From Paragyromitra xinjiangensis (lineage: Eukaryota > Ascomycota > Pezizomycetes > Pezizales > Discinaceae): a stretch of 64,000 bases of DNA. Under the pieces are notes generated by a model, which made no database searches, was not told where the DNA came from, and worked only from the letters and a program-made list of their open reading frames with translations. Where the stretch lies: assembly GCA_038503065.1 (NCBI GenBank), contig JBCAMK010000008.1, positions 806,001 to 870,000 on the forward strand, given 5' to 3'. Every line of letters begins with the position of its first letter. Position 1 is the stretch's first letter. Of this stretch, positions 25,331-57,397 are shown piece after piece. The translations under genes were made by a program, and so were the position numbers.

Positions 25331-25920
25331 CATCAGCAAGACCACACAATTCCGTCAGACGTATAGGGCGCTCCTAGCGCCCCTAGCGCTTGTGACGGAA
25401 ATCAATGATCAGGAGATTACGCTGCGTGCGCCAGGTGCGCCAGGTGGAAGTTCGCTGTGCCTGGTGTGCCAGGACGCATCCTGACATTATTTTGATAGCT
25501 TCCTGACCCATCCTGATAGCTCCTGAAGCTTTCGCGAAGGCCTCCGGAGCTCCTCTGGTCCGTCTTGATCATATTGTGCAATAATCGTGATACCTCTGGA
25601 GGATACTGATATGTATCCAGAGCTAATCTGACACCCCTGATGCTCTGCGGAGGACTCGTGAAGATGAGCCTATTGTGTCTGGATCCAGTCAGACGCCTAT
25701 AATTTTACCTCCCAAAGTCCTGATTTGAGCTCCGCGTCTGAAGACCTCGCTAGAAATCATGGTGATAGCTTATTGCGTCCTGGTGAATGCTCCTGAAGCC
25801 TCCTTGCATATCCTTATATTGGGATCTTTGATTTGTGGAAAATATTCCGTATATTACTGCTATTACTATTACCAACTAGCTACAACAAAAGAACTATCAA
25901 TTCCCCTCCATATCCTGTGC
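25331..25920. repeat. E1 left end: TIR and subterminal word repeats
   Basis: After the 13-bp TIR come GC-rich small palindromes (for example around GGGCGCTCCTAGCGCCCC) and direct repeats of GTGCGCCAGGTG. Then come E1 words such as AGCTTTCGCGAAGGCC near 25525, and looser copies near 25600-25800. No gene is seen. Such subterminal repeats usually bind CACTA-type transposases. Confidence 0.7.
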
Positions 25921-26300
25921 ACCAAAGGGTTTGCCTTGATTCGCGAATAAGCCACCGGTATTCTGTGCCTGACCACTTCCAAAGAGCCCATTCGCTTGCT
26001 ACAGTCTTCATAACAGCCCCCGAAGCATTCTCCAACTCCCTTACCGTACCAAAGGTTTTGCCTTGATTCGCGAATAAGCCACCGGTATTCTGTGCCTGGC
26101 CACCCCCAAAGAGCCCATTCGCTTGCTGCAGTCTTCATAACAACCCCCGAAGCATTCTCCAACTCTCTTACTGCACCAAAGGTTTTGCCTTGATTCGCGA
26201 ATAAGCCACTGGTATTCTGTGCCTGGCCACCCCCAAAGAGCTCACCTTGAATAGCCATAGTCTTCACGACAACCCCCAAAGCATTCCCCTAGTCCCTTAA
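25921..26300. repeat. E1 three-copy tandem repeat, 127-bp period
   Basis: Three copies begin at 25921, 26048 and 26175, each with ACCAAAGG...TTGCCTTGATTCGCGAATAAGCC. The copies are highly similar, and the third diverges near its end. Each contains E1-like words. On the minus strand the unit can be read as a Gly/Asn-rich peptide (…NTGGLFANQGK…), but 127 is not a multiple of three, so the frame changes from copy to copy. It is more likely a structural or binding repeat than protein. Confidence 0.8.
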
Positions 26301-26469
26301 AGCATCCTCTCTATCCTCCTCCTGAACCTCGCTGCTATCCACCGTTTCTCCCTCTCCCCCCCCTCCCCCCCCTCCCTCCACGTCACCCTCGCTATTTGAA
26401 GGTGCCGAGGTCTCTACTCCTGCTAGCCATGCGAGGAGTGTCAATCCCGAATGATCTGGAGTGGGAGAC

Positions 26470-28217
26470 CGCTCCCGGCTTGGTGTAGGTGGAGGAATTG
26501 TGGTCTTTCCTCTTCAGAAGGCCTCCAGAGCTTTCGTGAGAGCAAGATTATCTACGCGGAAGGCTTCCACAGCTATAACTTCCTCAGTACCATTTGCCCT
26601 CGAAATCTATAAAGTCAGCAAGCGGAAAAATAAATCCGGATCGTACATACCAGCATTCGTAGCCGTTCCTTCAACACCTCCATCGTGCCCTGCTGATTTT
26701 CAAGGCTAGGACTCCTCCAAGTGTTCATCATTCTCGTGAAGGTTCCTAGAGTGATCACGAGATTTAGTCAAGCTCTCTAGATGGCTCTTAGGATACTCAC
26801 GCATGACGCTTTGATTACTCCCTGTGAAGTCGTCCGGCTTGACATAGATCCCACTGCTCCAAGCCCGCAAACAGTGCCATATCCCAGTGGCTACTAGACA
26901 CACGAAGACTGGGTTGATCCTTTCTAGGAATTCGGGATCTTTGGAACCCAACATCTTTACCCCTTGGAAGTATTTGGCGAATATGACGCTTGTGATTTCG
27001 GGCGCCCAAAAGTGGCATGAGCAGTCCTAATGGCTGTCAGAGTATTCTAGATAGCTTCTGGGGCATTGCTTGTGCTACTTACTGTGTAGTTGTCGGAATG
27101 GCTTAAAAACCTATCGTTCTCCAGGAGATATTCGATTCTGGCAACTATCTCCGCCCGACTTGTGCATTGACGGAGCTTATATAGAACCCCCGCCTCAACC
27201 TTCTCCTTGATCAAATAAATCAAGTGCGATCTGGCCCGAGAATGGAAACTCTTTATCTATTATGTTGGTAGTTAGCAGGGGCTTATAGGGCTCTCGTGAA
27301 GGTTGATGGAGCATTCACTTGAGCCTGGCTGTCAACGCACATGATCACACTCAATAGTAGTTCTTCATTCGCCCTATTCCAGAGTTCGGTTACTATGGCC
27401 AACAGACGGGCAGCAGAAGGTAAAGGCTCCTGAAGCAGTGTATGCTGCTTCATGAGCTCTGCGCAATGCACAACAACCATTTGTGCTGGCCCCATAATCC
27501 TCGAGACACTTCTGCGACCTACATGCCTGGCCGGGATACTCTCATTGCTGGAATCGGACACTGGAGAGGATGGAGAGGGGGGGGTGGGGGGGGGGTTGGA
27601 GGGGAGATGAAGCAGAAGAATCGAAGGTTGCTGTGGCTCTGTGGAGTGCTCTAGGAGCTCTCGATCCAGCTCTTTTAGCCGAGAGTTTAGGCGGGATCCG
27701 ATTGCCATGCTGCCACGTCAGTTCTTGTGGGTCAATAAAAGGGAGTGCTTCCTACCTTCACAACGTGCAACCGCACATCAGAGGCAGCTATTACCTCCGA
27801 GGCTTTCTTCTTGATTGCTGCCAGAGCCTTCGTCGAAACCTGCACAGCTTTCCTCGATCTCTTCCTTCCTAGCTTGCTAGTGGTAATACGTGTCTTTGGA
27901 GGAGGGGGAGCAACTTCTTCATAGTCTTCATCTCCCTCGCCCTCCGAAGTTAAATATTCTTCATTCTCACGATCACCGAGTTCGTCATCCGAATCCAGGG
28001 GCGTGCGTTGCCCCAAAGGAAACTCGATATCGGAAAACTCCTCGGAGCCTTCACGGAGGCCCTGGCGGCTATCTTCATTGCTATCAACGTCTTCTTCGGT
28101 TGTCCCCTCATTGAACTCAAGATAATCTGGATGGGGAGGATCAAGCCTGGCTTTCTTTGTAGCTGATGATTTGGATGCTGGAAAGGCTCTGGAGGAGCTT
28201 CGCTTGTGAGATGACAT
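26470..28217 (-). CDS. E1 cargo gene 1, multi-exon, DUF6532-like
   Basis: The gene starts with the ATG at 28217. Supported exons are 28217-27756, about 27669-27319, 27256-27083 and 27026 to about 26780. The small introns are GT-AG (27257-27318 and 27027-27082, both phase 0). The first acceptor and the exons left of 26780 are uncertain; a further GT-AG intron around 26610-26650 is likely. Exon 1 is basic then acidic (Ser/Lys-rich start, many Asp/Glu). Exons 2-4 resemble the fungal DUF6532 domain: EPLPSAARLL...W, SRARSHLIYLIKEKV, ARIEYLLENDRF, IFAKYFQG and FVCLVATGIWHCLRAWSSG. E2 has a homologue with the same order, phases and orientation. Function is unknown. Confidence 0.65.
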
Positions 28218-28984
28218 AGTATGACAAATGGAAGATAAGGAACGTGGATATAGAAGGTGAATAGGAGAATGTAATATTACGCTGTAAAGACTGAATATAA
28301 GAAGACAATGTGTGCAGAGAGCTTAGAGAGCTTTGGCGAAGGTTGAGGGGGCATTCACCCCTTTATTTGGTGCTTTGATACTCGTAACCCTAAACCACCA
28401 CAATACGTGTCACTTCGGATGACGTCAAAGCTCGTGAGACAATATCAATTTCCTCCTATCAGCCACTAGCTATGAATGGAAGCAGCCTGGATCATACTCC
28501 TGAAGAATAGCTTAGAGAAATGAGCTATAGAAAATAATGCTCTACGAGTACTCGCGACAGCTCTCTCAACCCTCTCCAAAGCCCAAAACATATGCCCGAA
28601 ACTGATACGAGGTAATAATAGTAACAAATAAATAGATAAGGAAATGATATCAATAAGCCCCCAACCTAACGTGGACGACATCTGTAGCCCATCAAAATCC
28701 TCCGTACAACCCTCAGAATACTCGCGAATACCCAAATCCAGACGTAAATAGAAAAGAGAAAGAAGAAAGAAAGAAGAAACCAAAAGATATATAAAAAAGT
28801 AATACTAGCTCCCAAAACCTTCACCATAGCCCCCAGAGCACTCACGAAAAGCCAGATCCAGACGTATATGGAAGAAAAATATGGAAGGAAAATAGAAGAA
28901 ACCAAAAGATATGGAGAAAAAAAAAAACCTGGCCCCCAAAGCACTTACCATAGCCCCCATGGCTCTCACAAGAGCTTGCCTAAT
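28218..28984. other. E1 spacer between the two cargo genes
   Basis: No gene is seen. The stretch near 28320-28360 holds a long copy of the E1 word that is also found in an intron of cargo gene 1 (GTGAATGC...TCAACCTTC...). From 28690 to 28980 there is an imperfect tandem repeat containing CTCAGAATACTCGCGAATACC-like blocks, CCAGACGTA and A-rich runs. It would include the promoter of cargo gene 1 and the terminator of cargo gene 2. Confidence 0.5.
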
Positions 28985-30400
28985 TCAAGCTGCACCACCA
29001 GCGCCAGCATCAGCTCCGCCGCCAGCATCACCACCACCGTCGGTATTCTCACCTCCAGGCGGAGGCCCTGGAGGAGGTGGTGGAGGAGGAGGAGGAGGAG
29101 GAGGAGGTGGTGGTGCCTCAGCTCCGCCGCCAGCATTACCATCATCGTTGGTATTCTCGTCATCTTCAGGCAGAGGCCCTGGAGGTGGTGGTGGAGGTGG
29201 TGGAGGTGGTGGAGGTGGAGGGGCTGGTAGCCCAGCGAGATACTCAGCCCAGTCTGCCGCAGTCCAGATCTTGTCATCCCTCCAATGAGGACTGTTTGGA
29301 GTGAAGCCAGTAGGGTATTTCCTGAGGTAGGCATTGCTCACTCGAGTAAGTGCAGCTTCCTGGCGGTCCCTCCTTGCGACGAGTTTCCTGAGGAGCCTCT
29401 GGAAGGATGCGTCAGCTCTGGGCATTGCCACCTTTTCCCCGGTCTTAGTGACGCGAGCATTGTCGTCGTGCTCAGAATCCTCCGCAGGAAGGTCAAGCAT
29501 ATCATAGTCTTGGTCCTGAACGTACACAAAGCCATCTGGAGGGGGTGTCTGGGCGTCTCTCTCGGCTCTGTGGAGAACCACCAGGACTCTCAGCGGCTTT
29601 GCATTGCTACTGCAGACCCAAGCTTCGACCTCTTCTGCATCTGTGAGGAGTGAATAGCTAGGATTGCCAAAATTCACATCTGCAGAGGCGCCAGCTGGTG
29701 CAGGTCCAGGGTTCTCGGTAGCTCCGTAGAGAGCTCGGAGAGCTCTCCCGACGGGCATATGCTTTTTTGCTAGATTAACCATCTCACGCATGGTGGTATG
29801 GGCAAGGACTCCAGTATAGACTGGCCGGGTCAGAACGCCAAACCATGGATAGGGTACACCAATTGGAGGGAAGCCAATGTTATCCGGATCAACCATATGA
29901 ACGTGAACCACAGGCCGAGGCGGCGGCTGGATGATTGCGGGGATCATCGCGGCGGCTTTGAGAGCAGTCCTCTTGCGCTTTTTGGGCCTGGCCTCCTCCT
30001 CCTCGTCGTCGTCGTCCTCCTCCTCCTCGTCGTCGTCGTCCTCCTCCTCTTCTTCGGGGTTCTCTACCTCAAAATGGCGATCACCAGCACCGGCAGATTT
30101 CTTTTCCTTGGCTCCGACGTCAGCGATGAGAGCCTGGAAAGCCTTCTGGATGTTCTCAGAGGCTCTCTGGTTCTTTTTATACTTATCCTTCCAGGTGGCA
30201 CGCAGTGGTTTGATATAAGGGTGTTTGGAGATCCAGTTGCAAAGCTCATCAAACGCCGCCTGGCCAGAAGCAGTCTCATTAATCCAGCCAGAAGACGTCA
30301 TTTCGGCGGCGAGCTCCTTGCGCAGCCGGCGGTAGGATGAGTCCTTGCCCGTAAGCTGCAAAGTTGCCTTGATATCGGCTACTTTGATACTAGGAGCCAT
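28985..30400 (-). CDS. E1 cargo gene 2, acidic/proline-rich protein of unknown function
   Basis: A single open frame of 471 aa. Residues 1-95 look helical and Lys-rich and could be a small DNA-binding fold. Residues about 112-137 are nearly all Glu/Asp, followed by a KKRKR nuclear-signal-like stretch. A core at about 184-280 (PYPWFGVL, MPVGRALRAL, RVLVVLHRAE) is shared with the homologous gene of E2 at 51.3-52.8 kb. The C-terminus has two runs of 13 or more prolines with Gly/Asp-rich linkers, encoded by triplet repeats. I do not recognise the family. Position and orientation are conserved between E1 and E2, divergent from the transposase. Confidence 0.7.
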   Translation of the reverse strand: MAPSIKVADIKATLQLTGKDSSYRRLRKELAAEMTSSGWINETASGQAAFDELCNWISKHPYIKPLRATWKDKYKKNQRASENIQKAFQALIADVGAKEKKSAGAGDRHFEVENPEEEEEDDDDEEEEDDDDEEEEARPKKRKRTALKAAAMIPAIIQPPPRPVVHVHMVDPDNIGFPPIGVPYPWFGVLTRPVYTGVLAHTTMREMVNLAKKHMPVGRALRALYGATENPGPAPAGASADVNFGNPSYSLLTDAEEVEAWVCSSNAKPLRVLVVLHRAERDAQTPPPDGFVYVQDQDYDMLDLPAEDSEHDDNARVTKTGEKVAMPRADASFQRLLRKLVARRDRQEAALTRVSNAYLRKYPTGFTPNSPHWRDDKIWTAADWAEYLAGLPAPPPPPPPPPPPPPPGPLPEDDENTNDDGNAGGGAEAPPPPPPPPPPPPPPPGPPPGGENTDGGGDAGGGADAGAGGAA

Positions 30401-31635
30401 TCTATATTAGATTTTATTCGGTAGAGTGTAACGGAGGTTCTAGGAGCTATGTTGAGTGCTTGTAGGGTATTCAATAATTACTTATTTGCCTGCAAATAAG
30501 TATTAGTAAACGAGTGAATAAGTAAACGAATAATTGAGTATATTGATAAGCGAGTGAATGTATGTCTGGGAATGAGAGGAGTAGGGTGCTGTAAGGGCAT
30601 TATATAGAGGGATAAAAACCTTTGGGCTTTCGCAGCTTGCGTCGGATGCAACATGAGACATGACTGGCCTATAGCTTGAAACACCTGCTGAGCTTAAGAA
30701 GCATTAGCGAGAGCTCTTACAGCCATCTCGAAACCTCTCAAAGCTTTTGTAGGCTTACCGATACTAATTTGAACTCTTCCGTCGAATGGTCAACTTGAAA
30801 CAGCACCTTCAAAAAACTTGAGGCTCCACCGAATAGCTAATTCAAGTTCCCAAATCAAGCATTAGCCAGAGCTCACAAAGTCATCTTCAAAGCTTCATTA
30901 GCCTGCGATCGGAGCTTACTGTATTGTGCCGAGTGCTTGTAGAGAGTATTGCTTGGTAGGATACAGGAGTGGTCCAGAAAGCCTCTCGCGGAGCAGAAAA
31001 CTCTGAATATATAACCTCTGCTAGAGTTTGCTCAGGCTATTCTGACGTAGTTTGCCTGCTATCAGGATCCAGCCCGTGTCTCAGGAGCTTTGACCTGTTG
31101 ATGGCTCACAAATCATCACTCGCTCCATGAGTACTGTATTCAGCTCTCATTTAGTTCGTTGCAGCCTAGAAAGCATTCGTGAAGGCTTTCTGAGCACTGA
31201 CAGGATCTTTGTCTGTTTTTAGATCAGCTCCCGCTTCCATTTCATGAGTTGTTGGTTTGTCGGAGGAATACCGTTGGTCGAGCCATTTTGATACCATACC
31301 TCGACAAAGGAGGAAAGGAAATATTCCGCTAGCTCTGAGAGTTATCCTCAAGGCTTCCAAAGCCTTGAAGAGTGCTTTAGGTGGTGGATAAAGACCACTC
31401 CCACCATATGGGGTGGGAGTGGTCGAGGTTGAGGTTGAAAGCGGGGCTTGTTTGAGGTTGGTTTTGTTTGCGCTGGCAGGGGTGGTTGGCAGGGATCCTG
31501 CCAAGGAACTATGCCAAGGAACTATGCCAAGATATATCCCTGGTATGGGCGGCACGTGTTTTTGTTTACATCCCCCTGAGCTCTCAGCATTATCGCCAAA
31601 GCTATCGCCAAAGCTCATCAAGCAACTCCGGAAAC
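30401..31635. promoter_or_regulatory. E1 divergent intergenic region with word repeats
   Basis: This 1.2-kb gap separates the minus-strand cargo gene 2 from the plus-strand transposase and must hold both promoters. It contains many E1 words, for example near 30700-30760 (GCGAGAGCTCTTAC), 30860 (AGCCAGAGCTCAC) and 31370, plus short repeats of AAGTAAACGA. No further gene is seen. An open frame runs upstream of the transposase ATG from 31468, but the C2H2 motif and the homologue in E2 favour the start at 31636. Confidence 0.45.
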
Positions 31636-34600
31636 ATGTCGACTAAGTGCCCTTATTGCCGCAAACGTTACAAATATTCTACCAGCTTTGAAACCCACCT
31701 ACGAGAAAAGCATCCCCTCATTGCTCAGTCATTTCTTGCCTCTCTAACGATCCAAAGCTCATCCAATATTGGCGAGAGCTCTCAGAGCTATGATGGCAAC
31801 TTTCTTCTCAATGGCGATGATGATTTTGACACTTACGAAGCTAGGAGCAATAGTGATGGGGATGATTCCGATCAGGAGTCAGATTCAGATTTCAACCTCC
31901 ATAATACAGATCAGCCCCAGCGAGAGACAACTATTCCATACGAAGGTGCTGGACGACCTCTTCAGAGCTCCCAAAGCTATCAAGAAGAGCAAAATGTGTT
32001 GCTCCAAGATCCCTGGGCACCATTCTTGTCGGTGGAAGAATTCAAACTCGCTCGTTGGTTCATACGCGCTCAGGTCTCGCAAAGAGCCATTGATGACTAT
32101 TTCCAAAGCTCTCTAGGCCTTCCTGACTGCTCTTTCCGCTCCGGAAAGAGCTTCACGCGCAAAGTTGAAGAAATGCACACGACATTAGGCCGGGCTAGCT
32201 GGCACCTCTCGGATATAGAATTGGGTGGGAAGCAGATTCGCTATTACTATCGAGATCCTATAACCTGTATACGCTATCTGCTTAAGCAAAGGGCATACAC
32301 AAAGGATATGGTATATGCTCCTACGATGGAGTATAATAGCGCAGGGGAGCGAATGTACGGGGAAATGCATACCGCAGACTGGTGGTGGGAGACACAGGTT
32401 TGTGAAGCACTCTGGAGTACTCCTAGAGCCTTGACCAATGCGCTAACAGCTACTCTAGAACACACTGCCGGAAGGCGCTACAGTGGTCCCTGTAATTTGT
32501 GCTTCGGATGGAACACAGCTGACCAACTTCAGCGGCGACAAAAAAGCATGGCCTATCTATATCACTATCGGCAATATCAAATCAACAACTCGAGGCAAAC
32601 CTTCCAATCTCGCGATTATACTCCTGGCGTTGCTGCCGGTACCCCCGAAGCTTGGGAAGGAGTCTGCTTTCTCGAAAGTCCAGCGGCGGCAGAGCCAACA
32701 AGCTATACACAAGGTCCTGGAAGAGATTCTCGAAGGCCTTCAGAGCCCTGGCGAGAGCGGAGAACTTATGGACTGTGCAGATGGTCACCAGCGTCTCTGC
32801 TTCCCTATACTATGTGCTTGGATTGCAGATCAAGAAGAGCATGCCACCCTCCATAATATTCAAAGCCAGGCGTGTGCAAAGTGTGAAGTTGATTTTGATA
32901 GCCTTGGGGACTTTGCCGAATTCCCTCCGCGCAATCACCCAATCTATCGAGCTAAGATACAGCAATTCCGCCAGGACCCTACAAACACAGCTCCAATTAA
33001 ATACCTCGTCTCGAAGTCCGTCAAAACTCTCTACAATGCTCTCTGGGCTTTCCCCAATGTCCTCGTGCACGAGTTGCATAAGCCTGACCTGCTGCACAAT
33101 ATTTATTTGGGAGTATTGAAGCATATGATGGAATGGATCCAGTCGTTTTTAGGGAAGTATGGTCGCCTAGCGCAATTTGACGAAGCATGGCGATCGATGC
33201 CACCATATCCAGGATTTTCAGTCCCTACGAAGGCTTATAGGGAGGTAACGCAGTGGCAGGGGAAGGAGATGCGTAATCTTGGGAGGATAGTCCTGGGAGC
33301 CTTTGCCATAGCTCTCAGGGATCCCCCGAAAAAGTACAAAGATATCTTCAAGAAGGCGCTGATATGTGTTCGCTCATTTGTGGACTTTCACCTTATGGCG
33401 CAATACAACACCCACACCTCGGAAACGTTGGGATATATGAAGGGGTATTTGGAGGATTTCCACGAGCATAAAGATGTGTTTCTGGAATTCCGAGCATACA
33501 AGAAGACGAAGAAAGCAGCAAAGGAACGAACAAAGGCACTAATGGATGCTCTGCAGGCTCCTTCCACCTCTGCGTCGGCCGCAACCAACACAGCCCAAGG
33601 CAACAAGCGGAGGAAGACCCAGGATGGCTCAGGGAGCCTTGACCGCAGCCTTGAGGAGCTTCAGGAAATCCGTCAAGCCTCTCATTTCAACTTTATCAAG
33701 ATGCATCTCCTCACGCACTTCTGCCAGCATGTGGAACAATTTGGTAACATACCCATGTTCTCTACTGATATTAGCGAGCTTGCACACAAAGAGCAAATCA
33801 AAGATAGCTATAAGGCATCCAACAAAGTTGATGCCACGCTCCAGATCCTCGATATATATGCCCGTCGTCAAGCCTTCGAGATGCGATTGCTAAACCTGAA
33901 AGCAATTGTAGAAAGCTCTGAGAGTTATGCTGAGAGCTCTCTTGGCTCTGCAAAGACTTTGCAACAGTTGTTTGGTATAGGCAAAGAACGGGCACCGAAT
34001 ATCAAGGCATTACATCCGGAAAGCCTGCCGCAGCGCAACCTTAAAAACCGGGATCGCGACTGTTGCTTCCTCGCAGATGTCGCTGAGGCACTCGAACTGG
34101 ACCGATACAACCTTGGAAAAAGTATCCTGGAGTGGGCAAAGAATGTAGAAGGCTCTGAGGGCTTTGGCGAAGACCCACAAAACCTTCTCCACTATCCGGC
34201 AGAACGATTTGAATGTTTGCAAGTTCCCATCCCGACTTTTCAAGAAACTGATCTATACGAGGTCCATAACCTTCGCTGCACAGGGCGGAGGAAGTTTAGG
34301 AATAGAGCGCCACGAAATGACTGGGTCTGGATACAAGCAGGGTCGGAGGAGAATTGGGGGGCATTCCGGGGGCGCCTGCCAGCTAGACTTCAGGCATTAT
34401 TTAAGCTTCGCAATCCCATAAGCAGCCATTGGCACAGGTTGTGCCTAGTGGAGGTTTTAGAGGCAGCCAATAGGGGATCAGTAGATAGCTCCCATGGCCT
34501 TCTCAAAGCCTCTAAGCGCTCTCCAAGGAAGCTGTGGGTAGTGGATATCAGGAGTGTATTAGGAATGGCACATTTGATGCCGCTAGGGCAAAATGATTGG

Positions 34601-34648
34601 CTTGTAAATACACAAATAGATCTTAGAACATGGAACGAGCTATACTAG
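31636..34648 (+). CDS. E1 transposase, Plavaka-like, two exons
   Basis: Exons 31636-32397 and 32459-34648 give 983 aa. The 61-bp intron is GT-AG with GCTAAC near its end and joins WWWETQ to NTLPEGA. A C2H2 finger lies at the N-terminus (Cys5, Cys8, His21, His26). The core matches fungal Plavaka transposases (CACTA superfamily): a GERMYGEMHTADWWWE block, TNFSGDKKAWPIY, CFPILCAW, CxxC in CAKCEV, KPDLLHNIYLGVLKH, TQWQGKEMRNL and FNFIKMHLLTH. The enzyme should cut at the CATCAG ends. The frame is intact. Word-encoded inserts such as ESSQSYD, QSSQSYQ, ESSESYAESS and EGSEGFGE fall between conserved blocks. The start was chosen by the finger and by the same layout in E2. Confidence 0.85.
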
Positions 34649-34983
34649 GAGTAAGAGCTAGCTTGATTAATAAAGCATGTTTGATAGAAAGCGTCAGAAG
34701 CCTTCGCGATGATCTCCAGAGCAAGAAAGAATGATCCAATAGCCATCAAGTCTCCGATATACCATGATTACCCGCGTCAATCTCAGTGACTTCAGAGCCT
34801 GCGTTGCAGCATATGGAGAACCTGACGCAAGCAAATAAGCCTCTGATAAACAGGGCGCAGCTGGCTCCCAGAGCATCCGTCAGAACGCTGCAGGCACTCG
34901 GGACGCTCCAGATTCGCATGACGAAAATAGTGTGTCCTGACGCAGCAGCGAAGTATCAGGGCGAAATTTCGGTCTTGCTGATG
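34649..34983. repeat. E1 right end: subterminal words and TIR
   Basis: This is a non-coding stretch after the transposase stop. It includes E1 words such as AAGCCTTCGCGATGATCTCCAGAGC-like sequence near 34696-34720 (core AGCCTTCGCGA) and CCAGAGCATCCGTCAGAACG near 34868. It ends in GGTCTTGCTGATG at 34971-34983, the exact inverse of the left end. Confidence 0.75.
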
Positions 34984-47740: not shown

Positions 47741-47951
47741 TGTAAGACCGGTACTTCGCACCACTACTGAATTCTAAGTGAAGCTTTAGATAGCTCTCTA
47801 GACTCTGTAACTCGACCGGCTACTATCCGTAGCACAATACCCGAGCGCACGTCCTGACAACTTCTTATGAACCGCACAAAGGCAACAATAGTTTAAGCGA
47901 GATAAGGGTCGGGGCTGTTCCGTTGAAAGAACTTTCTCAATAGGAAGGACA

Positions 47952-48946
47952 CATCAGCAAAAATAATTATTTCCTCCCTCAGCTCCAGGAGGCTCGGGAG
48001 GCTCGGGAGGCGCTGGAGACTCCTGGAAAAAATGTGCCTACCTGGAGGAGCGAACGATACTCCACATCCTCGTGGAGACCCTGGGAGTCGTCCGCACCTG
48101 CTCCCCGAGTCTCCACGGAGATGCTTAGGCTCCTCCAGGTGTCTCCATAATGGGCAAGTATTAGTCAATATCCTGTGGAGAATCGTCGCATGGCTGCTTC
48201 CTTCATGGAGTACACGATATTGAGCTTCCTCCCAGGGAGAGCAGCAGCACGACTACGTCCTCCCTGAAGCATACGAACGTTTAGTGTTCTCCTGGGGAGC
48301 GCAGAGGCATGACTACTTCCTCCGAAGGATACGCGATATCGTGCTTCCTCCCATGGAGCAAGCGTTCTTTACTTTACAACTCCATACCATTGCATTTATA
48401 CCTCCTGGAGATATCCTGAATCGTCTCGGAGGTCCTTTGAATCCTCCTGAGCTCTCCATAATCGCTATGGCATCCCACATCCTCGCTCAGGAGGTCCTTG
48501 CTTCAAATCACACTTAAAGCCATTCACATGATATCACTCGGACCTGAGGAATTGAGTGCAGAAGAATTGAAATTACTATTATAGCGAGAATCCTCCAAAA
48601 TGATATAGATAATCCTTCGCATATCGAGACCAATCAACAGACAGATTAAACAGCAAACAAATCGAAAGATGAGGCGTATCCTCCACAGCGCAATCTAAAA
48701 AAACGAACTAAGGAAAAGATGCAGTGTATCCTCCACTGACCCCGAGACTAACCAAAAGACAGACAAAAACAAACGAAAAGAAAGATGCAGCGTATCCTCC
48801 ACAGACCTCAAGACCAACCAAAAGACAGACAGAAACAAACAAAAGGAAAGATGCAGCGTATCCTCTACGGCCCCCTAAGACTAACCATAAGACAGACAAA
48901 AACAAACGAAAGATACAGTGTATCCTCCATGGCTCCAAACATCCCT
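47952..48946. repeat. E2 left end: TIR, subterminal words and a tandem repeat
   Basis: After the TIR come dense words such as CTCCAGGAGGCTCGGGAGG and GGAGACTCCTGG, then looser TCCTCC/GGAGG copies. From about 48660 to 48940 there is a tandem repeat of about four units, near 62-65 bp each, with AAGATGCAGCGTATCCTCCAC and ACCAAAAGACAGACA. No gene is seen. Small open frames across the repeat come from its periodicity. Confidence 0.7.
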
Positions 48947-50870
48947 TCAAAGATCCTCAGCCTCCCTCTCCTGCTCGAAGCTTGCAACAGCCCCAGCAAG
49001 GTCAACCTGCATATCATCAGTAGTTGGAGGAGGGGTATCGACCTCAGTTTCGATCTCGCTCTCGTTTTCTCGCTCTAGGAAAAGGGTAGGAATATTGACA
49101 GGTCCTGGTGCCTGCTCCTGATCCTCAGGATGAGGAGACTCCGAACCCTTTCGCCTAGCTTTGCTGCGAGTATCCTGATAACCTCCCTTCTCAAGGTCCC
49201 GTTTCCGCTTGCGATTCCGTAACTCACCCATATGATCGTCATCGTCGTCATCGCTCCAAGGATCAGCTGACTCTTCCACAGGCCTCCTAGTCACCTTGGA
49301 AACCTTTCTCTCTACTTCATGCCGAATTGCACTGAGAATTTCCCCTTCCCATTCAGGAGCTCTGAGTGCTATGGCATTCCACGTCCTGCAGTGCCTGTGC
49401 CAGACCGCTATCAAGGATGTCAGTCTTCCTAGGAGAGATATAGTAGGATCTGGGGAGGGGGGAGTGGTACGATGACAGGTATCCCGAGTGAAGTCCACAG
49501 GCTCCACATACATGCCAGTCCTCCAGGCCTTTAGCCCATACTGAAGCGCTGCTGTGATAAAACAAATGAACTCCTTATTGATCAAGGAGCTAAACGCGGC
49601 ATCGGAGCGTCCCCTCATCCTTCTCCCTTTATAGTACCGGAGGAAGATGAGCTCAGCAATCGCATCATTGAGAAAGCGATTCTTATAATCCTAGTAGGAT
49701 GGTCAGCTTCCTACTCCTATTGCTCCCGAATTCGACATACCGCCATGGTAGATTCAAGGCACATAAACCTATCCTTGACTAGCAAATACTCCACCTTGTT
49801 TCAGATACTCTCAGGATTTTGCTCATCCAACTCATAGAGATGGACAATGCTCGCCTTGGCTGCGCCAACGAGGTGAGAGCGCACCCGGCAGTGCTGTTGG
49901 CTAATCTATATCTCGTGTGAGGATATGCAGTATCCTTAAAGGAAGGGGTAATTACCTGGACGTGGTTTTCTTTGGTCAGTTCCAAGCTCTCCAAGGCAAG
50001 CAATTCGGACAAGCTGTAGGTGGTTTGTGGATTGGGAATGAATACCTGACGAGTACAAGCTGCCTCCAGAGGAGCCTGACGCTCCATATCCTCCGAAGCC
50101 TTTGCCCAAGCAGCACGTATCCACCTGAGCAATGTGTCGGGGGATGGCAGGGGCTCACAAAATAGGGTCTTCTGGAAAATATTCTCCTGGCATGCATGGA
50201 CCAAGGCGCGGATAGGGTCCCCCAGCAGATATATGCTTCTGCTACTCCTTCTATGGAGGTCTCCCCCGAGACGACTCTCTGTATCGTCCATGGGAGATAC
50301 AGACCTTCCACTGCTACGACTCTCACCAGATAGACGATTAGGGGAGTTGGCAGGAGTTGCCGGAGGGCGCCCTGGCCTAGCTTGCCGAGCTGGTGTTTGC
50401 TCTAGAGATTCAGGAACACGCTATTTTGCAGTTAGAAAGTACTGAATATTTTAGGATTCTCAATACCTGACGATTCTCAGTATCCCTAGGGTTCCTACCA
50501 AGTGAGCTCGCCCTCGATAGCTGGCATTACGGGCCATTTCTGCTGCTGCTGCCTGTATCTTCGTCTGCGATTTTCTAGTCCGGTTCTGACTTGGAGGGGG
50601 AGCTTGCTCATCCTCATAGAAGTCCTCATCTGCCGAATCTCCTTCATCTACTTCCTCCTCTGCCTCCTCCTCTACCTCCTCCTCGAATTCCTCTCCTTCC
50701 TGCGATGCTGGTCCTCTTTCTCTTTCTTTGCCACGTCGGGTATAATTAAGAGGCTCAGCTTCCGGATCAGCGATACGCCTTCTCCTTCCTTCGGAGGGTC
50801 CAGGTGCGTGGCGAGAGGGAGGTGGCATTCGTTTAGCTGCTTCATGGCTTCTCTTGCTGATGCCTGCCAT
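48947..50870 (-). pseudogene. E2 cargo gene 1, DUF6532-like, four exons, one nonsense codon
   Basis: Exons are 50870-50499, 50420-49956, 49893-49741 and 49690-48947, with introns of 78, 62 and 50 bp, all GT-AG and phase 0; the protein would be 577 aa. Exon 1 is basic then Glu-rich. Exon 2 has LGDPIRALVHACQ and CEPLPSPDTLLRW. Exon 3 has HCRVRSHLVGAAK and KVEYLLVKDRF. Exon 4 has DYKNRFLNDAIAELIFLRYY and INKEFICFITAALQYGLKAW, then an acidic tail. These blocks align with E1 cargo gene 1 and resemble fungal DUF6532. A TGA at 49801-49803 in exon 3 (S-I-stop-N-K) breaks this copy. Function is unknown. Confidence 0.75.
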
Positions 50871-51319
50871 CCTTCAATGGATAATGGATGATTTGGAAGG
50901 ATAATAGAAGGCGATATAGTATTGTATGAGAGAGAATAGCGTATGGAGGAGAATAGCGTATGGAGGAGAATAGCGTATGGAGGAGAGAGAGAATCCTGAG
51001 GAGAACCTCTGGGGGTGACAATTATAAGGAGTGTGGTCTATCCTCTAAGACATATTTGAATTAACTCTAGTCCTAATATAATACTACTGACGCAGCGCTT
51101 CGACCCCCCCCCAAAATAAACAAAATACACGGATAGCAAATATCAAAGGATGTCCTGCATCCTCACGGTAATCCCCATAAAGCTCCCCTAATCCCAATCC
51201 TAATCCTTATACCCGATACCCCTAATCCCAACATCCCTAATCCCACCCTTCCGACCTGTTTAATATTATAAGCATTCGCTGATCTAGTGATAGCAGTCAG
51301 AAGGGAGTATACCAATCGT
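50871..51319. other. E2 spacer between the two cargo genes
   Basis: No gene is seen. The sequence holds a perfect short tandem of about three 20-bp units (ATAGCGTATGGAGGAGA type) at 50930-50995 and further E2 words. It should contain the promoter of cargo gene 1 on the minus strand. Confidence 0.5.
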
Positions 51320-52832
51320 TCAAGAAGGACCTGCTTCATCAGTATCATCCACTTCCTCCGTATCCTTCACTTTCCCTTTCCCCTTATCCTTCGCTTTCCC
51401 CTTATCCTTCGCCTTCCCCTTATCCTTCGCTTTCTCCTTATCCTCCGCTCCCTTCACTGCAGCCAAGGCTTTGGCAAGTGCCTCAGCTGTAAAATAATCA
51501 GGGTCCCCTGACGCAGGTGGCGTATCTGAGCCATCATACTCTTCCGCAGGCTCCCCCTTGGGGCCCGGGCCATCGTATGGGGCTCGATGAAGGACGACCA
51601 GCATCCTCGGAGCGGTTAGACTCTGTATCTGAGCTAGCCAGCCAGCAACATCTTCATCGTCGGCAAGAATAGTAGAGATTGGGTAAGTCGTAGAAAGCTC
51701 TCCAGGAACAGCATCCATAAGGGCTCCTAGCATCCTTCGAGGAGTACGGCCCACAGGTAATCGCCTCGTGGCTACACGAAGGCACTCGTTAAGGGTAGGA
51801 GCACTAATTACGGCAACCCAAGACTTGGTTAAACCCCAATTGGCCTCAGCCGGTGCTTCCCAGGGATAACGAGTCTCCTTGGTGGAAACCCTCCACCAGG
51901 CATCCGGGTCACAGAGTATCACTCGGACTGCGACTTCCTTGAAACCTGAATCACCCACACGATAGTAAGCATCCTTCAGTCAAACAAATAGAGACCATAA
52001 ACAGAATCTTACCTTCCACATCTTTTTCCGTTGCCTTGATCATACCAGTAGCCTCTAGCTCCGCACGGATCTTGGTATCCGTCTGCTGCACCTGATGCAA
52101 GCAATCGCGGAGGAGACTCTGCATCGCTTGATCTACCTGCTCCTGATCCTCCGCATGCCTTGAGCGGTAGGTTACAATAGAATGGTGCTCTGTCGCCCAT
52201 GCTGTTAATAACTCCCATGCATCTACGGTAGGATTAGCAATGCCTCGGATACCATGCATCCTCAAATAGGATACGACATCACTCCGAAGGACGGTATAAT
52301 GATGAGGATTATCCTCTCTAAACCCAAGGAGTGGCTTATAGTCAGTGGCTTTCATGAGCTTTTTCTTTGGCGTTTCCTTCTTTGGCGCCTTTTCCTTTAT
52401 TACCACTTTCTTCGGCGTTTCAGGCTTCTTTGGAGGTTTTGGGTCCTTCTTCGGAGTCTCCGTATCCTCCTTCGGGGTTTCCGGATCCTCCGATGGTTCC
52501 TTAGCTTTGCCTTTACCTTTATCTAAAGCAGCCATGGAGGGGGATGGAGTCTGTGAATCCTTCTTGGATGTTATAAGTACCTGGTCCAAAAAGAGGCGCC
52601 AACCTATATTGTCGGAGGGAGCGGTTGGGATATCAGTCCTCCGAGCACGAGGAGTAGGAGTTGAAGAAGTTGGAGTTGAAGGAGCTGCGGCGCGGCGGGC
52701 AAATTTTCTTTGTGTATAGTCGTCGCTGCTGGACAGGCGTTTTCGTTCGTTCGAGGGAGTCTCTGTATCTTTCGCAGGATTCTGAATAGCACTTGGTTCT
52801 GGTTCTTGATTTGATTTACTGGGAGTATTCAC
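51320..52832 (-). CDS. E2 cargo gene 2, unknown function, two exons
   Basis: Exons 52832-52013 and 51945-51320 are joined across a 67-bp GT-AG intron that splits a Gly codon (…KDVE-G-FKEVAV…); the product is 481 aa. The N-terminus is Ser/Pro/Thr-rich. A basic TPKK-type repeat region follows (EDTETPKKDPKPPKK), with similarity to histone-H1-like tails. Next is a helical segment (residues about 165-265). A core (RYPWEAP, LPVGRTPRRMLGAL, RMLVVLHRAP) matches the core of E1 cargo gene 2. The C-terminus has KDKGKA repeats and an acidic end. The frame is intact. A nucleic-acid-binding role is possible from charge alone. I do not recognise the family. Confidence 0.7.
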
Positions 52833-53628
52833 CGCCTATTTATATCAGTATCAACGTATCAAGATACTCCCCACCATGGAGTTTGCTTACCGCCCAACTT
52901 GAGCGCTGAATTTCCTCCGCGGAGTCTACTGCTGATTTGAGGATATTGGGCATCTTGAAACAGTAATATCAAGTTGGTTTAGGAAGGATATATAGTATCG
53001 CGAGCTTAGGCAAGCTAGGAGAGAAGGTTGCAGAGGATGGAGGAGAGCGAGGAGGAAGCTGAAGAGGAAGCTGAAGAGGAGGAGAAGCAGGATTTGTTTG
53101 CCCTGGCAGCGTTTATGAGGTCATATGTGAGGTATTGATAGGATCTGTGCGCAGGCCAACCCTAACCCACCTCGAAACCACTAAGCGACGCCTACACCTC
53201 CTATTTTGGGATTAGCCTGCTCCCATATTTCAACCTCATATCAACACCCCCTGAACTCCAACGAGCAGCAGCAAGAGCTTCCTACCTTTACGAGTAGTAG
53301 ACTCCTACTCTAGCGACCAATATCACTCCACTTCAGCGAGTTACAGCATCCTACTCCTTTCCAGCATCCTACTCCCTCTCAGCGTTCTACTTCTCCTCGG
53401 CATTAGCATCCCCGAGGCTGATTTCCAGCGATCGCCGCAAATCCTCCACGGGGCAACATTCCGCTCCCACGCAAGCTCTAGCCTGGATCCTCCCAATAGT
53501 GAGCAAATATCCTACTTCCTATCAGCGAGTGTCAGCATCCTAATTTCTCTTAGCGAGTATTGATATCATACTTTCTCCCGGCAAGGGCATTCTACTGCCA
53601 AGTGAGTTCCAGCATCCTTCAAGTTGAT
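52833..53628. promoter_or_regulatory. E2 divergent intergenic region with word repeats
   Basis: This 0.8-kb gap between cargo gene 2 and the transposase must hold both promoters. From 53320 to 53620 the repeat CAGCATCCTACTCC occurs many times with small changes, along with GGAGGAGAG-type repeats near 53035-53095. No additional gene is seen. The open frame extends upstream of the transposase ATG to 53560. Confidence 0.45.
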
Positions 53629-56600
53629 ATGGAGGTTTCAAGATCCCGTTGCCCACTGTGCCGCCGCACCTACAGCTCAGCTATATCATTACATACCCAC
53701 ATGGCGGATATCCACCCTAAGCATACCTCCATCGTATTTGGTCAAGGAGGCTCCCAATCCGAAGAGGATAATCAGGATGGTGCAACAGTTGGTTCGTGGC
53801 GCAAAAAGAATCCAGACAGTGACTGGGAAGATATCTGCTCTGACTCAGAAGGAGGCACATCGTCAAATGGGAGCACTGCAGGCGGAAGTGAGAAGGATGA
53901 CGAGAATCCTTCCGATACGGAGGATAATGACGTAAATACTAGTATAGGGCCCATGCAGCTGTCTGGCCCAGGGGTAATTCAATTTGCCGATGCAGCAGGC
54001 TCTTTGGGGGATGTGGAGGATCATCAGGAGGTTGTCGAATTCCTCCTTTCAAACCCATACACTCCATTTGAGACGGCTTTTGACTTCAAGCTCGCTAGGT
54101 GGATGATGGAGAGCGGAATAGCAAAAACCCGTATCAACGAGTATTTCAACGAGGAGCTCTGTACTCCTGTGCCAGGATTTAGGTCTGCCCATACGATGTA
54201 CAGACTCCTTGATAGGATAGATCCTGATTTAGGCCAAGCGCACTGGCAGCGAGGGAGTTGTGAAGTCATGGAGGGGACGAGGAAAAGAGTGACGTGGTAT
54301 TACTTCAGGCCAATACTGGCCTGTATCCAATACTTGCTCAAACAGCCGGCATATGCCAAGGATATGGTCTATCGTCCAATCCGAGAATACAACAACAGCG
54401 GAGAGAGGATGTATTCTGAGCTGCATACAGCAGACTGGTGGTGGGAAATACAGGTTAGCTATTCCCTCCTACGTATCCATTATTCTGCTAATTCTCGTGG
54501 CTAGGAAAGCTTACCTCGCGGAGCCACAGTGATTCCAGTCATCTGCACATCGGATGGCACACATCTTACCAATTTCTCAGGCGACAAGAAGGCTTGGCCA
54601 ATCTACTTGACGATAGGGAATATCCCTTCTGAGATTAGAAATAAGCCAACGAATATGGCCATGGTCCTTGTGGCACTCCTCCCGATCCCTCCAAAGTTTA
54701 CCAAGGACAATTCAATCAATAGGCTCCGCCGGGAAGCCAATAGAGATATATTGTACGAGGTTCTAAGCATCCTTTTGAAGGATATGAGGGAGGCTGGGAT
54801 GATCGGAATCCGATTAGCATGTGCGGATGCTCAGTACCAAATGTGCTATCCAATCCTTTGTGCTTGGATGGCTGACCACGCAGAGCATTGCCAACTCCAC
54901 AACCTGCAGCAAAACGCCTGCCCAAAGTGCGAGGTCAGACCAGACCAACTTGGTGAGCTAGTCAGCAGCCCGAAGCGAAACGATAAGGAGTATCAGGAAG
55001 TGGTGCAATCCTTCGCCGATACTGGAGATCCTCAGGAATTGGAGTATCTCGTCGAACAAGGGCTGAAAGCGCCATTCAACGTCTTTTGGGGGATGCCACA
55101 CCTCCCTCGCGCTGGGGACCTTCACAAGCCAGACCTCCTGCATAATATATATCTCGGTTTATTGAAGCATTTGATGGAGTGGATAGAGAGCTTCCTTGAG
55201 AAGCACAAGAGGCAGCAGGCATTTGACGAAGTCTGGATGTCAATACCCCCCTTCCCAGGCCTGACTAGGCCAACAAAGGCCTATCGAGAGGTCACCCAGT
55301 GGCAGGGCAAGGAGATGCGCAATCTTGGCCGTATCCTTCTCGGAGCGTTTGCAGTTGCGTTGCTCAATCCTTCGAAGGATGAGCTATATCCTTTCAAGCG
55401 AGCTATCCTTTGCGTGCGGAGTTTTATCGATTTCCACCTTATGGCACAGTATCGGAGCCATACACCTGAAACCTTGCGATATATGGATCAATACCTTGCC
55501 GACTTCCACCAGCATAAGGATATCTTCCTAGAATTCAGAGCTTCGAAGAAAGCAGGCGCCAAGGCACGAGCAACAGTCAAACGCTTGAAGTTATCTCAGG
55601 ATGCCCAGCATCCTTTTACAGGATCAAGAAAAAGGCGACAGGAGGATGCTGATAGGCTCGAAAGGAGAGAGCTACTCATTGAAACGCGGCAGGAAGAAAG
55701 CCACTTCAACTTTCCAAAGATGCACCTCTTAACGCACTTCCATGAGCACGTTAAGCAGTATGGAGGGATCCCCATGTTTTCTACTGAGGCGGGGGAGACA
55801 GCACATCGGCAACAGATCAAAGAAGGATATCGGGCATCCAATAAGAACGATTCGACGAAGCAAATCCTGCACTACTACGCACGTCGACAAGCATTGGGTA
55901 TGCGTATATTGAACCTCCGGGCCCTTTCGAGGGATGCTGAGCCTCCTAATTACGAGGATGCTGAGCCTCTCAATCCCGAGCTGCAGGATATTCTTAGGCC
56001 TAGACGATCCGAGGTCCAGCATACAGGAGAAAGGGCATCCCTCCGGCGATTGTGTGGTCGACAAGCAAAGATCTCCCTTCTGCATGACATCATCTCCCAG
56101 ATCAATATGCCTGATCTACCGGAACGAATACTATACTATAGTAGTCAGAATTTGAAGGATGAGCGTCGTCTTGAGGAGGATACAGAGGCTCTTCTCACAT
56201 ACCCAGCTGAGATGTTCTCTCACCTTCGAGTCCCTGTGCCGAAGTTCCAGCAACCTGAGGAGTTTGAGCTTCATCGTGTGAGATGCACAGGGGAGCGAGC
56301 GTTTAGGAGTCAGGCTCCACGGAACGATTGGGTGTGGGTCCAGGTAGGGGATGAGAGCCAGTTTGGCGCTCTTCGAGGACGCCTTCCAGCCAAAGTGCTT
56401 TGCCTCTTCAAGATTCGGGATCCTCATACCCAGTATACTCATCGGCTAGTCCTTGTGAGGATGCTACGAGCCTTTCCAGGTGGAGGCAGGATTACTGACA
56501 TCCATGGGATGGTGAGAGTATCTACAAGGCTGGCGGACGATCGATTCGTTGTGGGGATAAAGAGTATCATGGGAATAGCACATCTCATTCCCGAGCACCC

Positions 56601-56688
56601 GGAGCTCCAAGAGAATAATACTAAATGGCTGGTCAACAACCGAATTGATCTTACAACGTTTAATGAGATCTATACTTTAGAGAATTGA
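53629..56688 (+). CDS. E2 transposase, Plavaka-like, two exons
   Basis: Exons 53629-54453 and 54505-56688 give 1002 aa. The 51-bp GT-AG intron is at the same place as in E1 (after WWWEIQ). The N-terminal C2H2 finger has Cys8, Cys11, His24 and His29. The shared core has GERMYSELHTADWWWE, TNFSGDKKAWPIYLTIGN, CYPILCAW, CPKCEV, KPDLLHNIYLGLLKHLMEW, TQWQGKEMRNLGRI and FNFPKMHLLTHF. The frame is intact. Between conserved blocks the E2 word is encoded as DAEPPNYEDAEP and as EEDTEALL, where E1 encodes its own word. The ATG at 53629 was chosen because it precedes the finger closely; an in-frame ATG at 53560 is the alternative. Confidence 0.85.
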
Positions 56689-57397
56689 GGATACTGAGTA
56701 TCCTCGTAGGACCAAGAACGCAGGAATATGTGTGGATTAAGGAAACTGAGAATCCTCGAGGATTGCGAACTCTACGAACTTGTGCGGAGTGGGCGAAGGA
56801 TGGGAGAGGCAAAGAATGAGAGTACTAGTAGGCGTGAGATGGGAGTAGGCGTAGGATGCTTGATATCCTACGTGGCAACACTATCAATCGACTCAAAGAA
56901 TGTGGGGTAGGCGAAGGATAGGAAAAGGCGAAGGATAGGAGTAGGCGAAGGATAGGAGTAGGCGAAGGATAGGAGTAGGCGAAGAATGAGAGTCCTAGTA
57001 GGCGTGGTATGGGAGTAGGTAGAGGATGCTTGATATCCTACGTGGCAACACTATCAATTGAACAAATAAAAGAATAGAACCAATCAAATCTGAATATCAC
57101 GTGCTGAGCTGCAATTACTAAGCAAAACACCTGAAATTTTGCGGGGAAGAGAAGCATTATCCTCCTAGAGATATGAAGGAGTTGCTAGGTGCTCCACGAG
57201 CGTACATCAGTGATGAAGAGCAGCCATTTCCTCCAGGAGATTAAAAGGAGTCAAAAGGATAAGGTATATCCTCCAGGAGGAAGTAGTAGCGTGACCACTC
57301 CTTATGGAGGTCAGGGAGCACGTGGAGGTCAGGGAGGAAATTGCCTCCCCGGGAGACATGCCCAAACTCCTGGAGGCGATAATTATTTTTGCTGATG
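56689..57397. repeat. E2 right end: nested tandem repeats, words and TIR
   Basis: A short unit, GTAGGCGAAGGATAGGA, is repeated about five times at 56906-56985. It lies between two copies of a longer block, near 56812 and 56981, that contains GATGCTTGATATCCTACGTGG. Nearer the end are TCCTCCAGGAGG-type words, then the TIR. No gene is seen; short open frames are repeat-derived. Confidence 0.75.

Follow-up and report, generated by a model that had tools for sequence, protein, structure and literature searches.

Clade-specific imperfect dyads tile Plavaka transposons over their whole length, including their exons

Introduction

In the VANDAL transposons of Arabidopsis, the element-encoded VANC protein binds a family-specific short motif, and this effect extends along the entire element. 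The relevant sections of these studies describe a motif that is dense, differs in related families and diverges together with the protein; those of VANC21 lie mostly in noncoding DNA, as tandem repeats that share one orientation, and motif-free exon probes were bound much less well (PMC5735166, PMC10398659). CACTA/EnSpm elements carry family-specific subterminal repeats that can form palindromes and are bound by a second element protein, TNPA, which varies with them; in the element described in the pertinent part of that report, the repeat stretches are subterminal and span 159 bp and 732 bp (PMC2613891). PlavakaB has CATCA..TGATG termini, 2-3 bp duplications and a Plavaka transposase (PMC12730594, section 3.2.2). 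The terms "subterminal" and "DUF6532" are absent from the main text of that paper, and its relevant sections describe neither word arrays nor the cargo A gene considered below.

Here we analyzed a 64,000-nucleotide stretch (the window) of Paragyromitra xinjiangensis (GCA_038503065.1, contig JBCAMK010000008.1, positions 806,001 to 870,000), along with Plavaka elements elsewhere in this one genome.

Results

Two complete Plavaka elements

The window contains two complete Plavaka elements, E1 and E2 (Table 1). Their Plavaka transposase domains (PF18759) scored 192.3 and 189.3 bits against a cut-off of 26.3, and both elements have PlavakaB-type CATCA...TGATG termini and a target duplication within the 2-3 bp range (GA/GA in E1, CA/CA in E2). 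E1 is inserted within a LINE, as called by eye, and related copies are present elsewhere in the genome. The E1 exon 1 splice boundary was inferred from GT-AG and homology. Each element also encodes two cargo proteins. Cargo B contains DUF6532 in Pfam searches for which the exon pieces were run separately, the exon joins being predicted; cargo A matched no Pfam family above cut-off, and E1 cargo A has homologues in all six other complete elements. Five of these six (F2c, F2d, F3, F5 and F6) were obtained from nine element regions, some of which were joined to known loci, while F2b (L042), F4 (L040), L046 and L047 had no recognized end and were left out as whole elements.

Table 1. Elements, genes and word sites of E1 and E2 (positions within the window).
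Feature	Position	Strand	Details
E1, complete Plavaka (CACTA-like) transposon	25331..34983	+	ends CATCAGCAA...TTGCTGATG; 2-bp GA duplication
E1 transposase exon 1, C2H2 finger and start of Plavaka domain	31636..32397	+	PF18759 2.8e-17
E1 transposase exon 2	32459..34648	+	PF18759 1.7e-56
E1 cargo A, predicted five-helix N-terminal domain, candidate word reader	28985..30400	-	homologues in other elements
E1 cargo B, putative multi-exon, DUF6532	26709..28217	-	PF20149 2.3e-10 on 26709-27026
E2, complete Plavaka (CACTA-like) transposon	47952..57397	+	ends CATCAGCAA...TTGCTGATG; 2-bp CA duplication
E2 transposase exon 1	53629..54453	+	PF18759 7.1e-17; splice boundary inferred
E2 transposase exon 2	54505..56688	+	PF18759 1.4e-55
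E2 cargo A, exons, with an approximate 5' end	51320..52955	-	
E2 cargo B, exons, DUF6532	48947..50870	-	PF20149 6.9e-6 on 48947-49690
E1 word pair, 21 bp apart, exon 1	31761..31805		12.3 + 12.8 bits
E1 word within E2-conserved block LGAFAIALR	33294..33317		19.0 bits
E1 word pair, 21 bp apart, exon 2, peptide AIVESSESYAESS	33898..33942		6.6 + 17.1 bits
E1 word pair, 21 bp apart, exon 2, peptide NVEGSEGFGED	34135..34179		6.7 + 17.7 bits
E2 word, exon 1	53892..53912		21.1 bits
E2 words, exon 2, RDAEPPNYEDAEP	55929..55973		19.0 + 15.0 bits
E2 words, exon 2, KDERRLEEDTEA	56154..56195		9.5 + 15.9 bits
E2 exact dyad GAGGATACTGAGTATCCTC, overlaps transposase stop codon	56687..56705		

Each element carries its own dyad

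The initial annotation of the window had proposed that each element is written in its own recurring word. K-mer counts and word densities bear this out, with the form of the word refined from a single string to an imperfect dyad that tiles its element end to end. The E1 dyad is about AGAGCnnTCnnGAnnGCTCT, with pairs at exactly 21 bp frequent, and the E2 dyad is AGGATRCnnnGYATCCT. AGAGCTC occurs 15 times in E1, three times in E2 and twice in the other window DNA (43.3 kb), and ATCCTTCG occurs 14 times in E2 and in neither E1 nor the other window DNA. At a cut-off of ≥7 bits, E1 exons contain 6.9-9.2 sites per kb and E2 exons 7.3-10.1, and both words are rare in the other window DNA (0.47 per kb for the E1 word and 0.35 for the E2 word). 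All ten coding places originally cited overlap matches of ≥6 bits (six of six in E1 and four of four in E2, one by just 8 bases).

Two further Plavaka clades of the same genome have dyads different from these. Matrices were constructed for E1, the E2 clade (pooled E2, F2c and F2d), F3 and F6, from starting points chosen by eye, one source list of which included exons. No dyad was found when one was sought in the fifth clade, F5, for which there is no matrix, and the trait may not be universal among Plavaka clades; F5 vocabulary is still common to exon and remainder (K=9, z 3.7). Exact E2 and F3 dyads number 44 and 22, respectively, in the 48 Mb genome, all of them within or ≤9.5 kb from Plavaka genes, with transposase places being a typed selection from genome search results, and reversed controls gave 0 in each case. 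An exact genome search with the full E1 consensus gave no match, and one with the F6 dyad gave 6 matches versus 10 for its reversed control; neither result supports such an association with Plavaka genes.

Words extend along the whole element

In four clades, units recur about every 110-240 bp along all 8-10 kb of the element, with mean spacings of 184-239 bp in E1, F3 and F6. The spacing is more even than random, most clearly in E1 and F3; in F2c, F2d and F6 this evenness weakens as the cut-off becomes stricter. Words are also found in 5' and 3' flanks free of predicted genes and in genes of both strands. Rather than mainly noncoding tandem repeats in one orientation, as for VANC, the sites are dyads whose density in exons is of the same order as in noncoding DNA.

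In six elements, no 1-kb bin is without sites, which are thus not confined to subterminal regions in the CACTA manner. They could still be extended CACTA-type transposition sites, that is, TNPA-like accessory sites that join the ends and have spread further inward: Plavaka elements are CACTA-like, words occur close to either end, and their density peaks in the first 1-kb bin in E1, E2, F2c and F3, with a tie for first in F2d. However, the internal bins, exons included, remain populated (4-13 sites per kb for E1 and the elements of the E2 clade, 3-5 for F3) and evenly spaced, and end pairing should need no selection kilobases inside, making this account unlikely. Even, whole-length coverage would fit target immunity or self-avoidance, in which a coating protein prevents insertion into the element itself or its own kind, as well as it fits anti-silencing, but Pfam scans of the exon pieces revealed no ATPase partner and we consider such a function improbable.

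Candidate readers of the words

Because the dyads have fixed letters, the simplest reading is that they would be binding sites for a protein. The initial annotation had suggested as much, naming as reader either the C2H2 transposase or a cargo protein. Binding sites are consistent with the element specificity of the words, their excess in exons and the constraint on their letters (below), but the transposase finger helix does not follow the word: judged by eye, F3 and F4 have the same word yet different finger helices, and the helices of E1 and F4 (L029) are almost identical yet their words differ. A cargo protein is a possible reader. The best candidate appears to be the cargo A N-terminal domain, the sequence identity of which is 66-90% between elements with the same word and 22-39% between elements with different words (five elements). 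None of the fold matches obtained for models of this domain supports DNA binding; these matches were weak and carry little weight either way.

A host DNA-binding protein might read the words instead, either for defense or exploited by the element. This is very improbable because a different word in each clade would need several host readers; in addition, the elements appear to retain the sites rather than lose them.

Words in exons and constraint on synonymous positions

In the exon test, matrices fitted outside the transposase gene only were scored on exon 2 against protein-preserving codon shuffles, a control that the initial annotation had put forward. The own word exceeded the shuffles with z of 7.1 in E1 and 11.4 in E2 (0/400), and with z of 4.1 and 7.9 when codon-junction dinucleotides were also kept (0/1000). 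In each of six elements, 0/1000 shuffles were as high as the own-word score in exon 2, and the exons of foreign clades were hardly matched; clade specificity together with exon enrichment was seen in four clades. The E1 cargo A coding DNA scored z 4.8 with its own word (0/300). Own-word scans of further loci covered eight of the 30 transposase loci L009-L038. Some foreign words scored mildly above the shuffles: the E1 word in the F3 exon (z 2.3), the F6 word in E2 exon 1 (z 2.2) and, under dinucleotide-keeping shuffles, in the F3 exon (z 2.4), and the F3 word in L053, an exon of the F5 clade (z 4.5). In the reverse test, exon-fitted matrices, both begun from the same typed seeds as the matrices fitted outside the transposase gene, gave a site density in the remainder of the element of 9.5 per kb for E2 and 7.8 for E1, compared to 1.0-1.4 per kb in the other element and other window DNA.

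The proposal that words enter exons at matched positions held in part. Clades 1, 2 and 3/4 have word matches in the two slots named, ESSESYAESS/DAEPPNYEDAEP and EGSEGFGED/EEDTEA, but a conservation-matched test of all slots on 11 sequences gave p values of 0.077, 0.051 and 0.026 (0.159, 0.062 and 0.032 for ungapped columns only), with clade 6 showing no excess. Similarly, word coverage near alignment gaps is clearly raised in two of four clades, but words are not confined to gaps.

In both clades tested, the third positions of codons show ~60% fewer differences in word columns of high information than in the same codons elsewhere. In clade 2 (five of 14 loci, one per subfamily), synonymous third-position differences number 162/1741 (9.3%) in word columns, compared to 3566/14542 (24.5%) outside words and 501/1924 (26.0%) in spacer columns, and 0/200 rotations were as low as the word columns. 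Pairs of families 3 and 4 (two of six family-3 loci plus both family-4 loci) gave 53/238 (22.3%) versus 1841/3453 (53.3%), again with 0/200 as low; a further synonymous comparison within family 3 drew on four of its six loci. The codon-matched ratios were 0.41 (0.22-0.62) for clade 2 and 0.39 (0.20-0.59) for families 3/4, with control words at 0.94-1.06; in families 3/4 some conservation extends to the spacer columns (ratio 0.61), and the column contrast is weaker than in clade 2. The measurement was made in these two clades and not in the E1 clade because E1-clade copies are too alike (~99%). These comparisons support the conclusion that, where divergence suffices, the DNA letters themselves are constrained beyond the protein.

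An RNA-level signal, with the dyads working as hairpins or protein-binding elements of the transcript, would accord with their potential to pair as hairpins and their presence in exons, but is highly improbable given letters fixed per clade and sites that lie outside predicted genes and in genes of both strands. Slippage, gene conversion or codon bias spreading functionless words would fit the direct repeats in the elements, which have constant steps of 17/34 bp in E2 and 59 bp in F3, but such a relic, the least probable alternative, is disfavored by a clade 2 constraint limited to informative columns and absent from spacer columns of the same words (the contrast being weaker in families 3/4), by an exon excess that survives fixed protein, codon usage and codon-junction dinucleotides and by word positions that families 3 and 4 still share at a protein identity of 71%.

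Discussion

Our data suggest that at least four of five Plavaka clades have their own imperfect-dyad array over the whole element and that selection maintains these dyads even in exons, where they limit synonymous codon choice. The words are very probably selected, clade-specific DNA sites, and their reader is likely encoded by the element. We envisage that a dimeric, clade-specific element protein, most likely cargo A via its fast-diverging N-terminal helical domain, binds the dyads and may cover the element at about nucleosome scale. Such coverage might keep the element's own kind clear of silent chromatin or DNA methylation while leaving other families untouched, and word and reader would switch together when clades split. 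A VANC-like anti-silencing task, proposed by analogy, is a tentative assignment. For the explanation as a whole, in which a clade-specific element protein, perhaps a VANC-like anti-silencer, reads selected dyad arrays along the entire element, we judge the chances to be even on the sequence data.

A bolder and rather doubtful formulation is that two codes overlap in these elements: besides the genetic code there would be a ruler of dyads particular to the clade, about one per nucleosome and running through exons, by which a private protein coats and marks the whole element; new clades would then arise as the reader and dozens of sites switch alphabet, with many sites unmoved. Were the explanation to hold, the DNA-binding partner of a transposon would be able to subject its genes to a second, overlapping code across the whole element, and one genome would hold a natural series of word-reader pairs for studying the joint change of a protein and dozens of sites. 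It would also offer a possible route by which, in hosts that methylate their DNA, fungal DNA transposons remain active and leave the rest of the genome undisturbed.

Bacterial Chi, KOPS and DUS are words that impart chromosome architecture or serve in uptake, are recognized at the DNA level and run across coding DNA; however, they are chromosome-wide, with one alphabet per species, rather than particular to a mobile-element clade, and do not tile a transposon with dyads. E1 and E2 share termini, duplication size and transposase with PlavakaB. CACTA/EnSpm, a related superfamily, likewise has family-specific repeats able to form palindromes, but these are subterminal, whereas the Plavaka words extend over the whole length, exons included. 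As in VANDAL elements, a family-specific short motif is present at high density in Plavaka elements; here, in contrast to the VANC motifs, the sites are evenly spaced dyads that also lie in exons of three genes and are under synonymous constraint.

Two Plavaka elements and their surroundings

The genome around the window spans 48.2 Mb in 22 contigs, and in addition to E1 and E2 we compared five of its complete Plavaka elements, F2c and F2d, which belong to the E2 clade (clade 2), F3, F5 and F6. Both E1 and E2 encode a Plavaka transposase (PF18759, E values of 1.7e-56 and 1.4e-55, respectively) with a C2H2-like finger at its N-terminus; together with their ends and duplications, this fits PlavakaB as defined in PMC12730594 (section 3.2.2). 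Two further genes, cargo A and cargo B, are matched by homologues in each of the seven complete elements compared. A Pfam scan of cargo A gave nothing above cut-off. Among its four relatives in the databases are two Maublancomyces gigas proteins and one from Morchella snyderi, which points to a Pezizomycete host. Judged by eye, E2 apparently sits within an LTR retrotransposon.

Features of E1, E2 and the neighboring window DNA
Feature	Position	Strand	Description
E1	25331-34983		Ends CATCAGC...GCTGATG; 2-bp duplications
E2	47952-57397		Ends CATCAGC...GCTGATG; 2-bp duplications
Cargo A (E1, E2)		Opposite to transposase	
Cargo B (E1, E2)		Opposite to transposase	DUF6532
Poly-C/G tract in E1 cargo B	27560-27610		Open frame shifts nearby (by eye)
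LINE interrupted by E1	24172-25377, 35425-39039		ORF1 left, endonuclease/reverse-transcriptase-like ORF right (names by eye)
Second LINE	41653-46482		Name by eye
Protease/gag-like pieces flanking E2	47198-47773, 57705-59861	Minus	By eye
Short non-autonomous element	23584-23828		Ends CATCAGC...GCTGATG; first bases found also in locus L044 and in the region of transposase locus L029

At least four clades carry words of their own

The initial annotation held that each element is written in its own nucleotide word, and k-mer counts bear this out: AGAGCTC is frequent in E1 but rare in E2 and other window DNA, and ATCCTTCG is frequent in E2 but rare in E1 and other window DNA. With half-sites joined by hand, the words are imperfect dyads, AGAGCnTTCGCGAAnGCTCT-like in E1, AAGGATRCnnnGYATCCTT in E2, TGACGACCTn5AGGTCGTCA in F3 and AAGGACGAnnTCGTCCTT-like in F6. 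An unsupervised count of spaced 4-mers recovered GGATN7ATCC in E2 (14 versus 0.86 expected), ACCTN5AGGT in F3 (7 versus 0.31), GACGN5CGTC in F6 (9 versus 0.33) and, in E1, AGCT repeated in steps of 21 bp (8 versus 0.84). This count gave no comparable dyad in F5 (L044 clade), whose exon and rest nevertheless share vocabulary. Relative to synonymous-codon shuffles, the transposase exon of each element reuses the 9-letter vocabulary found elsewhere in that element, with z values of 3.1 (E1), 3.1 (E2), 1.0 (F2c), 4.1 (F2d), 3.8 (F3), 3.7 (F5) and 3.1 (F6). The best sharing of F2c is with its clade-mate F2d (z 3.9), and values across clades reach 2.3.

Words within coding exons

Matrices scoring the words in bits were fitted solely outside the transposase gene, from seeds picked by eye, one source list of which covered whole elements. 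The claim that words enter coding exons withstood protein-preserving shuffles in both E1 and E2. Against 400 shuffles that preserved protein and codon usage, the own word in transposase exon 2 scored z 7.1 (E1), 11.4 (E2), 11.9 (F2c), 11.1 (F2d), 17.9 (F3) and 5.5 (F6), with 0/400 reaching the real score in each, while foreign-clade words ranged from -0.8 to 2.3. When every codon-junction dinucleotide was also preserved, the values were 4.1, 7.9, 7.8, 7.6, 11.4 and 4.6, respectively (0/1000 in each; top foreign z 2.4). Own words also scored in exon 1 (z 4.8 in E1, 6.6 in E2), in the coding part of E1 cargo A (z 4.8, 0/300) and in four cargo exons of E2 (z 1.6-3.1, 0-16/300). Matrices built from exon 2 only detected 9.5 sites per kb in the remainder of E2 and 7.8 in that of E1; in the other element or in window DNA outside both, the density was 1.0-1.4 per kb.

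The own-clade word scored in 8/8 further loci scanned (z 6.9-19.2). These eight include L028 and L029 of family 4, whose word is that of F3 (z 15.9 and 16.7). In a further set of five exons, two from F6 relatives gave z 2.7 and 3.3 with the F6 word, and the other three, from F5 relatives, had no known word; one of these three gave z 4.5 with the F3 word, an exception to clean clade specificity.

Word letters are constrained beyond the protein

For five clade 2 subfamilies, one sequence served to locate the sites, and third positions were then compared among the others wherever the amino acid was the same. High-information word columns differed at 162/1741 positions (9.3%), versus 3566/14542 (24.5%) outside words and 501/1924 (26.0%) in low-information columns within words; rotated sites gave 0.233 (sd 0.017; 0/200 as low), and the E1 and F6 words, as controls, 0.243 and 0.266. 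Within family 3 the differences were 36/482 (7.5%) in word columns, 912/7034 (13.0%) outside and 50/298 (16.8%) in spacers (0/100 rotations), and between families 3 and 4 they were 53/238 (22.3%), 1841/3453 (53.3%) and 60/150 (40.0%), respectively (0/200 rotations), where the E2 word as control had no effect. Matched by reference codon, the ratio was 0.41 in clade 2 (bootstrap 0.22-0.62, 85 codon columns) and 0.39 in families 3/4 (0.20-0.59, 36 columns), with low-information columns at 1.11 and 0.61 and control words at 0.94-1.06, one from 21 cells only. Thus, the DNA letters of the words are under constraint beyond the protein, the column contrast being weaker in families 3/4.

Layout along elements and across the genome

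At 7 bits or more, site density is 4.2-11.4 per kb over eight regions of E1 and 7.3-12.1 by region in E2, and no 1-kb bin lacks sites in any of the six elements for which a matrix was fitted. By comparison, the other window DNA, 42.7 kb in all, holds 20 matches to the E1 word and 15 to the E2 word. With sites <30 bp apart merged (7 bits), units are spaced more regularly than at random: E1 has 52 units (mean 184 bp, CV 0.43 versus 0.81 random) and F3 44 (mean 211 bp, 0.37 versus 0.83; 0/4000 as even), with a longest F3 gap of 409 bp versus 812 expected. CVs in E2, F6, F2c and F2d were 0.51 versus 0.73, 0.57 versus 0.84, 0.56 versus 0.71 and 0.59 versus 0.73; evenness weakens at stricter cut-offs in F2c, F2d and F6, and the F2c longest-gap test was not significant at any cut-off. 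Among 84 E1 sites, 27 pairs lie exactly 21 bp (two helical turns) apart. The extended F6 motif, written in different letters, shows a 21-bp repeat as well.

Across the 48.2 Mb, the exact E2 dyad was located 44 times and its reversed control not once. Of the 44, 41 lie no more than 9.5 kb from a Plavaka transposase match in the list used, zones that by arithmetic cover ~3% of the genome, and the remaining three lie within E2-clade sequence. All 22 exact F3 dyads (control, 0) lie within such zones. The full E1 consensus had no exact genome match and the F6 dyad had 6, versus 10 for its reversed control; exact-match specificity is thus demonstrated for two words only.

Shared positions are suggestive

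Within clade 2, 17/22 exon 2 sites of subfamily 2a occupy the same column in 2e, and sites of 3a recur in 4b (9/9) and 4a (7/9). Clades 1, 2 and 3/4 share positions near alignment columns 201, 490, 580 and 687, the last only in subfamilies 2a-2c within clade 2. Columns 490 and 580 are the two peptide examples from which words at matched positions had been proposed. Rotation tests over all slots support coincidence (p 0.0082, 0.0164 and 0.0000). However, p values were 0.077, 0.051 and 0.026 with local conservation matched and 0.159, 0.062 and 0.032 in ungapped columns, and clade 6 showed no excess; we regard shared positions across clades as suggestive. Around alignment gaps, word coverage is elevated in E2 and F3 (rotation fractions 0.017 and 0.009), with no clear rise in E1 or F6.

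A candidate reader and comparison with known systems

Of the proposed readers, the transposase C2H2 finger is not supported, as its helix, compared by eye, does not change in step with the word. Among five elements, the cargo A N-terminal domain shares 66-90% identity between word-sharing elements but 22-39% across word boundaries, where transposases share 49-54%. This divergence makes cargo A the best candidate for a putative word reader, but not more. The domain is modeled as five helices (mean pLDDT 76), and fold comparison gave no recognizable relative.

In the accessible part of the open-licence PubMed Central literature, we found no earlier account of such word arrays in Plavaka or transposon exons. 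As a combination, these features resemble the VANC/VANDAL anti-silencing system more than CACTA subterminal repeats. The spread of the words through coding exons and along whole elements differs from both the noncoding motif placement of VANDAL (PMC5735166, PMC10398659) and the subterminal placement of CACTA repeats (PMC2613891), as the available parts of these papers describe them.
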